Assembly (NCBI RefSeq): GCF_000384075.1 | Contig: NZ_KB913025.1 | Coordinates: 312,238-376,237 of the forward strand | DNA: 64,000 nucleotides | Reading direction: 5' to 3' | Origin: Methylovulum miyakonense HT12 | GTDB taxonomy: Bacteria > Pseudomonadota > Gammaproteobacteria > Methylococcales > Methylomonadaceae | In this document: positions 12,450-15,915 of the stretch, piece by piece | Layout of the letters: each line of letters opens with the position of its first letter | Position numbering within the stretch: the first letter of the stretch is position 1 | The notes under the pieces: model-generated | Told to the model about the DNA's origin: nothing | Databases searched by the model: none | What the model saw: only the letters and a program-made list of their open reading frames with translations | Translations under genes and position numbers: made by a program

Positions 12450-13697
12450 TCACCCGCCACCCTGTTGGGGATCATTCAGGAAACGGTAATTTTTGGGTAC
12501 GACGGTGATGCCGGATTCTGAAATGACGAAGCGGCTGGCATCGGCGGCGGGGTCACAGCCAATCCGTTCGCCAGGCGGGATCCGTACGTTTTTATCGACG
12601 ATGCAACGCCTCAAATGCGCTCCCGCCCCGACATGTACCCCGTCAAACAAGATCGAATCTTCGACTACCGCCTGTTCATCCACTTGGACTTGGGAAAACA
12701 GGATTGAATGCCTGACGACTCCGCCCGAAACGACCGTCCCGTTGCTGAGCAAGGAATTGACAAGTTGCCCGTCGTATCCGAAAGCCCCAGAGACCATGCG
12801 GGCGGGCGGGTTTTGTTTGTGGTAGGTGCGGATGGGCCATTCCGGCTGGTACAAGTTCAATGGCGGGACGGGGGCGAGCAGATCCATGTTCGCCAGATAA
12901 TACGCGTCGATGGTGCCGACATCGCGCCAGTAGCGGTCTTGGCTGACACGCCCGGATTCACCACCGAAGAGGTAAGCGTAAAGGCGCTGCTTACCGATGA
13001 GCCGTGGAATAATGTCCTTGCCGAAATCAAGGCCTGATGCGACATCGCTTGGATGGGCGGTTTCCAACTCACGGAAAAGCAAATCCATGTTAAAAATATA
13101 GACGCCCATTGAGGCCAGCGCATGGTGCGGGTCATCTGGCAAGGGCCGGGGATTTTTGGGCTTTTCGTGAAACTCGCCAATCCGTTGCGTATCATCCACT
13201 GACATGATGCCGAAAGCGCTGGCGTTGGCGAGCGGCACGGGCATGCACGCAATCGTCAGCTCCGCCCCCTGGTCGCGGTGGGATAGCAGCATGGCGGCAT
13301 AATCCATACGGTAGATGTGGTCTCCCGACAGGATCAGCACATAGCTGGCCTTGCTGCGTTCAAGCATGTACAGGTTTTGGCGGATGGCGTCGGCTGTCCC
13401 GGAATACCAGGACTCACCCGTCCGCATTTGTGGCGGGACGGGCATGATGTATTCGGATATTTCCGGGTTGAAAATGCCCCACGCATCGTGCAGGTGCTTT
13501 TGCAGCGATTGCGACTTGTATTGGGTCAGCACCAGCACCCGCCGCAATCCGGAATGCAGGCAATTCGTCAATGTGAAGTCGATGATCCGGTAATTGCCAC
13601 CGAACGGCACCGCGGGCTTGGCCCGGTCGGCGGTTAGCGGATGCAGCCGCCGACCCACGCCGCCTGCCAGGATTACGGTCAAGGTTTTATCTTTCAT
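12450..13697 (-). CDS. glgC: Glucose-1-phosphate adenylyltransferase
   Basis: Makes ADP-glucose from ATP and glucose-1-phosphate, the committed step of glycogen synthesis. 415 residues. The N-terminal nucleotide-binding motif is ILAGGVGRRLHPLT, followed by RAKPAVPFGGNYRIIDF. The active site YSGTADAIRQN and YVLILSGDHIYRMDY are present, and the C-terminal left-handed beta-helix carries the hexapeptide-like VVSGGVVRHSIL and VHVGAGAHLRRCIVDKNVRI segments. No other glycogen gene is adjacent. The start follows GTGACGG rather than a strong ribosome binding site. It is divergent from the twin small-RNA-like units. Confidence 0.96.
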   Translation of the reverse strand: MKDKTLTVILAGGVGRRLHPLTADRAKPAVPFGGNYRIIDFTLTNCLHSGLRRVLVLTQYKSQSLQKHLHDAWGIFNPEISEYIMPVPPQMRTGESWYSGTADAIRQNLYMLERSKASYVLILSGDHIYRMDYAAMLLSHRDQGAELTIACMPVPLANASAFGIMSVDDTQRIGEFHEKPKNPRPLPDDPHHALASMGVYIFNMDLLFRELETAHPSDVASGLDFGKDIIPRLIGKQRLYAYLFGGESGRVSQDRYWRDVGTIDAYYLANMDLLAPVPPLNLYQPEWPIRTYHKQNPPARMVSGAFGYDGQLVNSLLSNGTVVSGGVVRHSILFSQVQVDEQAVVEDSILFDGVHVGAGAHLRRCIVDKNVRIPPGERIGCDPAADASRFVISESGITVVPKNYRFLNDPQQGGG

Positions 13698-13923: not shown

Positions 13924-14088
13924 CCTGCGACAATCTGCCACGCGGCAATGTGTCACATTCCATTTCTGACAACTTATCCGTAAGATAACGCCAACTCTTG
14001 AGATGCATGCTCCTTCTTGGAACCTTAGAGTTTTATATCCTTCTCTTTAGCGGCTTACACAAGCCGCTTTTTTTTGCCTGTGGTTTTG
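13924..14088 (+). ncRNA. Candidate small-RNA gene, tandem copy 1
   Basis: A 165-bp unit repeated at 14119-14285. In order: an upstream hairpin TGCC-ACGC-GGCA, the 13-bp palindrome AATGTGTCACATT (13947-13959), a -10-like TAAGAT (13981-13986), then about 80 bp with no gene that can pair AACTCT with AGAGTT, and an intrinsic terminator AGCGGCTT-ACAC-AAGCCGCT followed by seven more T (14049-14075). The expected transcript runs from about 13993 to 14075. The -35 region is poor, so an activator at the palindrome is plausible. Both neighbouring genes are on the other strand, so the terminator does not belong to either. Confidence 0.65.
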
Positions 14089-14118
14089 GCGGGCTAATGC
14101 CGAGGGAAAGGCATGGCT

Positions 14119-14285
14119 CCTGCGACAATCCGCCACGCGGCAATGTGTCACATTCCTTTTGCCATAACTTGCCCGTAAGATAAGCACAACTCTTGAGATG
14201 CAAGCTCCTTCTTTGGAACCTTAGAGTTTTATATCCTTCCTCTTTAGCGGCTTATCCAAGCCGCTTTTTTTTGCCTGTGGTTTTG
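14119..14285 (+). ncRNA. Candidate small-RNA gene, tandem copy 2
   Basis: Second copy of the unit at 13924. The palindrome AATGTGTCACATT is at 14142-14154 and TAAGAT at 14176-14181, with the same 31-bp spacing as in copy 1. The terminator AGCGGCTT-ATCC-AAGCCGCT plus seven T is at 14246-14272. Bases outside the palindrome, the -10 box, the ACTCTTGAGATGC core and the terminator have drifted between copies (changed loop, small indels), which suggests those parts are under selection. The expected RNA is about 85 nt. Confidence 0.65.
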
Positions 14286-14300: not shown

Positions 14301-15419
14301 TCACTTTGCCGCCGCCTCGCCCGCAAAATATTTTTCCCGAAAATACAAGGACAATTTAACCAAACCAACCAACGCAGGCACTTCAACCAACGGGCCAATG
14401 ACCGCCGCAAACGCCTCGCCGGAATCCAGACCAAAAACCGCCACCGCCACCGCTATCGCCAATTCAAAATTATTGCCCGCCGCCGTGAATGACAGCGTCG
14501 CACTGATACGGTAATTCGCCCCTGCCTTGTCGGACAGATAAAAAGTCAGCAAAAACATCACCGCAAAATAAATCACCAACGGGACGGCAATGCGCAGGAC
14601 ATCCATCGGCAATTGCACGATGTATTCGCCTTTCAACGAGAACATCACCAAGATGGTGAACAATAAGGCAATCAAGGTGATGGGGCTGATGCGCGGTATG
14701 AAGGTTTGTTCATACCAAACCCTACCTTTTAAACGCACCAAGACCAAACGGGTGGCCATGCCTGTGAAAAACGGGATGCCTAAATAAATCAAAACGCTTT
14801 GCGCCACGTCCGACATGGCCAGCTTGACTTCCAAGCCTTCGGCAATGCCCAACATATCCGGTAATACCGTGATAAAAACATAGGCGTACAAAGGGAACAG
14901 CAACACCTGAAAAATGGAATTGCAGGCCACCAAGCCCGCGCAATATTCGCTGTCGCCATCCGCCAATTCATTCCAGACCAACACCATCGCAATACATCGC
15001 GCCAAGCCGATGATAATCAAACCCACCATATAAGAGGGGTAATCGTGCAAGAAAACCACCGCCAGCGTGAACATCAACACCGGGCCTACCAGCCAATTTT
15101 GCAGCAAGGAAATGGACAGGACCTTAATGTTTTTGAATAATTGCGGCAGCTCTTCATAACGCACTTTCGCCAACGGCGGATACATCATCAGGATCAGGCC
15201 AACCGCAATTGGGACGGAAGTGGTGCCCGTTTGAAAATGCCCCAGCCATTGCGTCACATCAGGGACGAAATAGCCCAAACCCACGCCACCCGCCATGGCC
15301 AGAAAAATCCACACGGTCAGGAAGCGTTCGACAAAACCCAGGTGTTTTGGCGCGTCAACATCAACAGGCGCAGCATTGCTTGCATGCTTATCAATAGCAA
15401 GGGTGTTTTTCGTAACCAT
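14301..15419 (-). CDS. acr3: Arsenite efflux transporter, ACR3 family
   Basis: About 372 residues with some ten membrane segments; exports arsenite made by the arsenate reductase upstream. A TTG at 15455 would extend it, but the ATG at 15419 ([14 protein letters not shown]) is preferred. The N-terminal membrane entry [20 protein letters not shown], the [17 protein letters not shown] segment with the conserved cysteine, and [20 protein letters not shown] are typical ACR3 sequence. It follows arsC by 19 bp in an arsR-arsC-acr3 operon. Confidence 0.95.
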
Positions 15420-15438
15420 TAGTTTATCCAGCCTGAAG

Positions 15439-15915
15439 TTAATAAGACTGCCCAATGTAGTTGAGCTTGCCGCTCAACTCGGCACAGGACAATGTCTCCA
15501 ATGGCAACGCCAACATGGCTTTGACGCGCCGTTCCAACGCCTCATAAGTCGCTTGGAATGCCGCCTGGACCTCGGCTTCCGTACCGCTGGCATGGGCCGG
15601 GTCGGGTAAGCCCCAATGCGCCCGTGTGGTGCTGTCAAGATACACGGGGCAAACTTCACCCGCCGCCTGGTCACAAACCGTGATGGCGATATCAATGCCG
15701 GCATCGGCAAATTCATCCCAAGATTGGCTGCTATAACCTTCAGTAGGTAGGCCATTACGCTGCAAGGTCGCCAGCGCGTTGGCATTGACTTTGCCGACCG
15801 GACGGCTGCCAGCCGAAAACGCCCGCAAACGGCCTTGGCCCAAATGGTTGATCAAGGCCTCGCCCAAAACGCTACGGCAAGAATTGCCAGTACACAAAAT
15901 TAATACGTTTAACAT
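15439..15915 (-). CDS. arsC: Arsenate reductase ArsC (LMW-phosphatase type)
   Basis: 158 residues from the ATG at 15915, preceded by GAGGCGG. The P-loop [15 protein letters not shown] matches the thioredoxin/glutaredoxin-linked arsenate reductases of the LMW-PTPase fold. Redox cysteines lie in the P-loop, in ITVCDQA, and in [19 protein letters not shown] is the acid loop. It reduces arsenate to arsenite for export by Acr3. The upstream gap to arsR (58 bp) is AT-rich and contains a perfect ATATTTAAATAT palindrome. Confidence 0.94.

Follow-up and report, generated by a model that had tools for sequence, protein, structure and literature searches.

Probable tandem small RNA genes with RegA-type promoter boxes in Methylovulum miyakonense HT12, putative members of an RNA family of methane-oxidising bacteria

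In Methylovulum miyakonense HT12, two units that are about 90% identical lie head-to-tail on the plus strand, flanked by two minus-strand genes, glgC (12450-13697) and a gene for ACR3 arsenite efflux (14301-15455). Coordinates refer to the window, which is the whole stretch of 64,000 nucleotides that was analysed. Each unit consists of a promoter, a core of 83-85 nt that is apparently non-coding, and its own terminator. The original prediction described tandem twin small-RNA-like genes, and the palindromes, the TAAGAT elements, the cores, and the terminators with eight T were all located as described there. In a DNA search of the own genome, unit 2 matches unit 1 with 90% identity over 152 bases (E 8.9e-52), and no further unit matches were found in this search at E <= 0.01. 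Most differences between the units fall in the linkers, and both units retain the boxes, the -10 element, the core, and the terminator; the unit alignment and the relatives agree with the earlier view that the linkers drifted and the functional parts were retained. The following features were assigned.

13927-13941, plus strand: distal RegA-type box GCGACAATCTGCCAC of unit 1, 15/15 to the box pattern GCGRCAATNTGNCRC, at -65 of the RNA start
13941-13957, plus strand: exact match of unit 1 to the PrrA site YSCGGC(5)GWCRMA, formed by the proximal box with its flanks
13942-13956, plus strand: proximal RegA-type box GCGGCAATGTGTCAC of unit 1, at -50, overlapping the palindrome at 13947-13959
13947-13959 and 14142-14154: palindromes AATGTGTCACATT
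13981-13986, plus strand: -10 element TAAGAT of unit 1, with no -35 consensus
13993-14075, plus strand: small RNA of unit 1, conserved core, start placed by the spacing from the -10 element
13993-14032, plus strand: 5' hairpin of unit 1, outer stem AACTCT/AGAGTT, inner TCC/GGA hairpin with C/U-rich loop
14033-14047, plus strand: unpaired conserved stretch TTATATCCTTCTCTT of unit 1, proposed target-pairing (anti-SD) region
14049-14075, plus strand: intrinsic terminator of unit 1 with T8 (hairpin 14049-14068)
14122-14136, plus strand: distal RegA-type box GCGACAATCCGCCAC of unit 2, 14/15
14136-14152, plus strand: exact PrrA-consensus match of unit 2, proximal box with flanks
14137-14151, plus strand: proximal RegA-type box GCGGCAATGTGTCAC of unit 2, 15/15
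14176-14181, plus strand: -10 element TAAGAT of unit 2
14188-14272, plus strand: small RNA of unit 2
14229-14244, plus strand: unpaired conserved stretch TTATATCCTTCCTCTT of unit 2
14246-14272, plus strand: intrinsic terminator of unit 2 with T8 (hairpin 14246-14265)

A scan for consensus terminators recovers both terminators (3 such sites found in 801 bases, where 1.2 would be expected). No sigma-70 -35/-10 pair was found on the plus strand in a scan of 801 bases, which fits an activator-dependent promoter.

The units have relatives in many other genomes. A DNA search of 41 genomes, including the own genome, found the unit or a part of it in 22. For wider searches the covariance model R1 was used, a roughly calibrated model that covers 84 positions of the RNA, excludes the promoter, and contains a 5' stem entered by hand. 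The window RNAs, which are themselves part of the alignment of the model, score 95.4 bits (unit 1) and 88.6 bits (unit 2). Of 301 genomes from the order Methylococcales, 199 gave matches; 190 of these genomes belong to the window's own family, and the matches in the nine others are weak (E 0.001-0.01). In a sample of the class (369 genomes), two genomes have matches at E <= 0.001, both from the window's family. The searches of order and class used stricter filters by which weak matches are lost. In the order, copy number ranges from 1 to 7 per genome at E <= 0.01. Among 79 loci with copies, each holds 1 to 4, and 25 contain tandem arrays of 2-4 copies spaced by 165-240 bases (e.g. L080, L076, L113, and L114); at two further loci the spacing is wider, with 586 bases (L110) and 7030 bases (L096). 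A pattern scan led to 82 stretches, and among the 80 loci listed all are assigned to Methylococcales (Methylobacter, Methylovulum, Crenothrix, Methylotuvimicrobium, Methylomicrobium, Methylocucumis, and Methylococcaceae) except for L081, which is assigned to Gammaproteobacteria only and has an RNA and promoter nearly identical to the copy of Methylotuvimicrobium buryatense. The expectation that the core is conserved in relatives is borne out by the covariance search, and this conservation extends beyond the terminators to the core and the promoter box. Genome G041 has three dispersed and diverged copies (L354-L356) with two boxes each, near -50 and -65. In the copy of G021 (L026:1501-1680), boxes, -10 element, and terminator are kept around a divergent core that is devoid of UAUAUCC; this copy is possibly another sibling type.

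None of the families of Rfam 15 matches anywhere in the window at its gathering threshold, in line with the earlier remark that no named family has such a sequence. The best match below threshold by bits is suhB/MmgR (RF00519), with 22.0 and 20.3 bits where the gathering score is 41; the Burkholderia RNA Bp1_781 has a lower E-value than suhB/MmgR, yet reaches 18.8 of 80 bits. Membership in a known Rfam family was therefore rejected. A literature search at the level of titles and beginnings of abstracts found no published account of this RNA family. The units are almost certainly small RNA genes, and by their sequence they look like members of an RNA family that had not been listed before and that is found in methane-oxidising bacteria.

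The conserved part of the promoter was delimited in an alignment of 26 copies. The upstream element TGCGACAATCTGYCAC-GCGRCAATNTGYCACATT is made up of two 15-bp boxes that directly adjoin each other. Both are imperfect inverted repeats of the form GCGRC-N5-GNCRC, from which a few rows deviate in the distal box. The box GCGRCAATNTGNCRC is located at about -50 from the RNA start and is often doubled at -65. R1 gave 125 matches in 88 sources, 122 of which were examined after omission of the truncated L044 and the duplicates L020 and L023; at least 80 bases of upstream sequence are available for 120 copies. Of these 120, 119 have a box with at least 13/15 between -52 and -47, and the single boxless copy (L039) is an evident chance match (E 0.56). 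The model that found the copies excludes the box, and the scoring pattern of the box was derived from the first 26 copies. A second box with at least 12/15 at -63 to -68 accompanies 84 of 116 group-A copies, the group of the window units. Two copies have short upstream regions: in L076 a 14/15 box is located at -50, and in L117 no box is present within 62 bases. In G041, the two divergent copies with scores of 40.2 and 36.2 bits have the proximal box at -50/-51 and the distal box at -65/-66. No box accompanies a chance-level R1 match in the own genome (E 6.4).

It was originally predicted that the units share the palindrome as an operator. A putative common operator is indeed present in both units in the form of the 15-bp boxes at -50/-65. 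The palindrome itself does not hold in this role: only 4 of the 116 group-A copies, including both in the window, keep its exact symmetry, it overlaps the second (proximal) box only, and the conserved element begins upstream of it. The palindrome was therefore rejected as the operator. With up to one mismatch, AATGTGTCACATT occurs at three places in the 4.69-Mb genome, and the third, at 1182.6 kb, is a divergent paralogue (group B). This group-B copy, whose neighbour gene we take from its sequence to be msrA, has one box, a stem AACTTT/AAAGTT instead of AACTCT/AGAGTT, the same UUAUAUCCUUC stretch as group A, and a terminator. In 14 group-B sequences (13 and that of the own genome) AGTTGCGTTATAT is invariant.

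The form of the box points to a response regulator of the RegA type. The RegB/RegA system is also named PrrBA or RoxSR. In the own genome, a single full-length regulator of the RegA type (187 aa) is encoded behind a putative kinase of the RegB type (459 aa). The regulator has the domains Response_reg and HTH_8, and its best NCBIfam match is ActR/PrrA/RegA (3-171 of 173, 191.9 bits, below the cut-off of 250); that of the kinase is ActS/PrrB/RegB, which again does not reach the cut-off (202.9 of 350 bits). The kinase contains GGASNP, which resembles GGXXNP, a quinone motif of RegB, and the HTH of the regulator carries ALNMHRRTLQRKL, which we take to be the recognition helix of RegA/PrrA/RegR.

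Three consensus sites are quoted in the literature, namely PrrA (YSCGGC(5)GWCRMA), RegR (GNGRCRTTNNGNCGC), and R. capsulatus RegA (PMC5506826). The same paper describes RegA-type sites as degenerate and their prediction as having failed in Acidithiobacillus (PMC5506826). The PrrA pattern is independent of the sequences analysed here, unlike the box pattern GCGRCAATNTGNCRC. Both window units match it at 12 of 12 positions, and 9 exact matches occur on both strands of 1.66 Mb. Among 119 copies, which are related to each other and hence are not independent trials, the best PrrA score near -51 is 9 in 7 copies, 10 in 56, 11 in 49, and 12 in 7, so that 112 copies reach at least 10 of 12 and 56 at least 11; in background windows of equal width, 10 is found in 0.37%, 11 in 0.03%, and 12 in 0.001%. 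For RegR, 107 of the 119 copies score 9 of 11 (background 0.23%), as do the window units, while 10 copies score 8, two score 10, and none scores 11. The R. capsulatus RegA consensus is very loose: 102 copies score 11 of 12 (background 2.3%), two score 12, and 15 score 10, and the 10 of 12 of the window boxes is reached by 9.6% of the background.

The genomic position of the group-B RNA provides a further link. Because this RNA was located near the RegA gene in two relatives, the regions upstream of regB were inspected in 20 genomes, which were chosen by hand, include both of these relatives, and comprise 18 of the window's family. A box with at least 14/15 is present in 15 of these 20 regions; at the rate in the own genome, about 0.04 boxes (up to one mismatch) per 3 kb are expected by chance. 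In 13 of the 18 family genomes, a group-B RNA with box lies divergent from regB-regA (11 of 16 excluding the two relatives that prompted the inspection). It is absent from this place in G000, G006, G007, G041, and G079, i.e. in five of the 18 family genomes, the own genome being one of them. G047, from another family, has a 14/15 box upstream of regB without the RNA, and in G034, from a third family, such a box falls within the longest open frame of regB, the start of which is uncertain. Since a RegA-type regulator is encoded in 190 of 201 genomes of the order and the RNA is nearly restricted to one family, co-occurrence alone proves nothing.

According to these sequence comparisons, the promoter boxes are very probably under the control of RegA. 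A different regulator, e.g. a Fis-type response regulator or an unrelated dimeric factor, might read the RegA-like box of a genuine sibling sRNA family. This reading draws on the higher specificity of the conserved box compared to published RegA-type sites, on the two deviations from the RegR consensus in the 107 copies mentioned above, on the scores of the RegA-type proteins under the curated cut-offs, and on the families with RegA in which the RNA was not found or has weak scores only. It is opposed by the exact PrrA matches of both window boxes, the box and sibling sRNA adjoining regB-regA in most of the family genomes inspected, the box-like sites near regB in G047 and G034, and ALNMHRRTLQRKL in the HTH, and it appears unlikely.

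The RNA itself is predicted to start with a hairpin, followed by the unpaired stretch UUAUAUCCUUCUCUU and the terminator. Folding z-scores are modest (-2.2 for unit 1 and -2.1 for unit 2), and the complementary strands fold equally well or better (z -2.25 and -3.1), so that the folding energy is no proof by itself. The terminator covaries, with two-sided changes in all 6 pairs. In the 5' outer stem, 1 or 2 two-sided changes per pair were found in 119 distinct rows; as its pairs are nearly invariant and the covariation alignment was fitted to the structure, support for the 5' stem is mostly conservation. With 25 rows aligned by MAFFT, RNAalifold failed to reproduce the 5' stem and proposed a short AGAG/CTCT helix along with the terminator; pair counts on alignment A5 tend towards the stem given by hand. 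At least 5 of the 6 outer pairs are formed in single-sequence folds of 86 of 114 distinct sequences. The pairings of the inner hairpin vary (UUCC/GGAA, CCCCC/GGGGG, GUCCCU/GGGGAC, ACCUU/AAGGU, and CUCC/GGAG), and its loop is C/U-rich, frequently UCCUC. The UAUAUCC stretch has a mean probability of 0.92 of being unpaired (minimum 0.44, 108 distinct sequences); AUCC is absent in 6 sequences, and ATCCTTC is present in 110 of 122 rows. Features of the Hfq type are a U-rich stretch before the terminator and a U-rich tail; no hfq was found by tblastn in the 1.66 Mb searched, about a third of the genome.

Together, these features would be explained by a family of sibling sRNAs that is activated by RegA and represses translation through exposed anti-SD motifs, a model which is likely as a whole and whose steps are unequally supported. 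Each unit would be an independent gene for a trans-acting small RNA of 83-85 nt, the boxes of which are predicted to bind the response regulator RegA. Upon a quinone or oxygen redox signal to RegB, RegA would activate transcription from about -50. The RNA, probably together with Hfq, would expose two anti-SD motifs, the hairpin loop and the UAUAUCCUUC stretch, and these may cover the ribosome-binding sites of target mRNAs and thereby cause repression. The twins and the divergent group-B copy would then be sibling RNAs and form the repressing arm of RegA.

Possible targets were evaluated in a duplex scan of 1545 predicted gene starts in 1.66 Mb (about 35% of the genome), based on a simple in-house start prediction and energies that contain no accessibility term. 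For all three RNA segments, the top-1% energies lie within the range of five shuffled controls: -16.1 for the group-A stretch (shuffled -14.5 to -16.9), -19.9 for the group-B stretch (-17.4 to -20.7), and -20.8 for the loop (-19.9 to -23.0). The top match is a membrane protein whose pairing is not conserved; among the 18 genomes that have a match, energies span -4.2 to -20.8 kcal/mol in 17 (G015 was omitted as broken). The gene pmoB is third for the group-A stretch, with -18.8 and 12 contiguous pairs. The pairing bases AGAGGAGGATAT of pmoB do not vary among the 16 genus genomes in which a pmoB start was examined, a set that includes G009 and G015, where the gene is split over contigs or frames. 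Outside the family, pairing is -15.8, -14.9, and -20.2 kcal/mol in the three genomes examined of the 7 with a pmoB match; the DNA search found no such RNA in these three, so the strength of pmoB pairing does not track the presence of the RNA. In addition, a strong Shine-Dalgarno sequence scores well against any anti-SD RNA, and, together with a hairpin in the leader, this means that the conservation at pmoB may have another cause. By this modelling, pmoB is a weak candidate for a target. A wider proposal, which is improbable, holds that in the main family of gammaproteobacterial methanotrophs RegB/RegA acts largely via dedicated multi-copy sibling sRNAs, at which most of its strict operators lie and one of which is divergent from regBA, and that during redox stress these RNAs would lower methane oxidation by binding to the ribosome-binding site of pmoB.

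The pmoB leader TTCTCTATTATAGAGGAGGATAT before the ATG (L305, positions 886902-888143 of the own genome, minus strand) is identical in 15 of 16 genus genomes. It contains the CTCTATTATAGAG hairpin beside the Shine-Dalgarno sequence, and G015 deviates in the loop only.

The results of the duplex scan could also mean that the RNA does not act on ribosome-binding sites and has a protein as its partner or some other mode of action without pairing, as no target exceeds the shuffled controls. Moreover, a search of 19 genus genomes for the complementary 12-mer AGAAGGATATAA found just the opposite strand of the RNA itself and one further site, in G015, with no repeated target. The shape of the RNA argues against such a mode of action, which is rather improbable: the unpaired conserved stretch is an extended CCUUC motif, repeated GGA loops are lacking, and the one GGA that the window RNAs contain is predicted to be paired. 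Repression of translation by way of the anti-SD stretches is reasonably likely.

A very small protein translated from GAGATG was rejected as the product of the units and is hardly credible, since the ATG frame, which has 15 codons in unit 1 and the same length in 20 of 118 group-A rows, varies from 1 to more than 30 codons in these rows, and GAGATG is missing in 6. The tandem arrays of 2-4 copies at 25 of 79 loci would be compatible with a mobile or REP-like repeat element without function, a reading with next to no probability given that promoter geometry is conserved while linkers drift, the terminator covaries, and few copies per genome (1-7) are kept across the family.

Several known systems resemble parts of the proposed one. 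OmrA and OmrB are tandem twin sRNAs; they serve as an analogy only, with no Rfam family reaching its gathering score in the window. The Neisseria sibling sRNAs NmsRA and NmsRB have gonococcal counterparts, NgncR_162 and NgncR_163. NmsRA and NmsRB are tandem, structurally near-identical intergenic sRNAs with 70% identity and two predicted anti-SD motifs, which are tied to RelA and the stringent response and have sigma-70 -35 and -10 elements (PMC5362039). The sequence of the window units likewise indicates near-identical sRNA genes in tandem with their own promoters and terminators, and anti-SD motifs are predicted to be exposed in the C/U-rich loop and the unpaired UAUAUCCUUC. In contrast to NmsR, with which the units were likened by description, they have RegA-type boxes, no -35 match, and 1-4 copies per locus.

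With respect to its regulation, the RNA can be compared to PcrZ, which is directly controlled by PrrA. PcrZ of Rhodobacter sphaeroides is an sRNA of the oxygen-response network that includes PrrA and affects photosynthesis gene expression (PMC4263372). Compared by description, both RNAs would hold a similar regulatory position in a RegA/PrrA network, whereas PcrZ acts on photosynthesis genes. FnrS of E. coli is described as being directly under an oxygen-response regulator and as repressing target RNAs anaerobically (PMC4263372). It differs in being driven by FNR, and no Rfam match at gathering score is present in the window. The suhB/MmgR RNA shares the order of hairpin, C/U-rich unpaired stretch, and terminator, but its score is below the gathering threshold. 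As these comparisons are by description, the RNA is filed with neither the NmsR nor the PcrZ family.

If true, the model would describe a new regulatory RNA family in methane-oxidising bacteria that is tied to a redox sensor. How aerobic methanotrophs survive at very low oxygen is an open question in the literature, and an sRNA arm controlled by RegA would bear on it. The conserved box would also be a handle on RegA-type sites, which are degenerate according to PMC5506826.

In the own genome, the strict box is almost reserved for these RNAs, which account for 4 of its 5 exact matches and for 5 of the 8 intergenic sites with at least 14/15 in 1.66 Mb. With up to one mismatch, 68 matches, some of them on both strands, were counted in 4.69 Mb compared to 16 for the reversed pattern; four scrambled controls gave 7-30 sites on 1.66 Mb, 1-2 of them intergenic, compared to 22 and 8 for the true box. 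Of 29 box loci examined in the own genome, 24 are away from these RNAs, and 19 of these 24 lie inside predicted genes. The sole exact match outside these RNAs, GCGACAATTTGCCAC (L124, genome positions 4480025-4480039, minus strand), is located about 75 bases upstream of a gene resembling those for TonB-dependent receptors.
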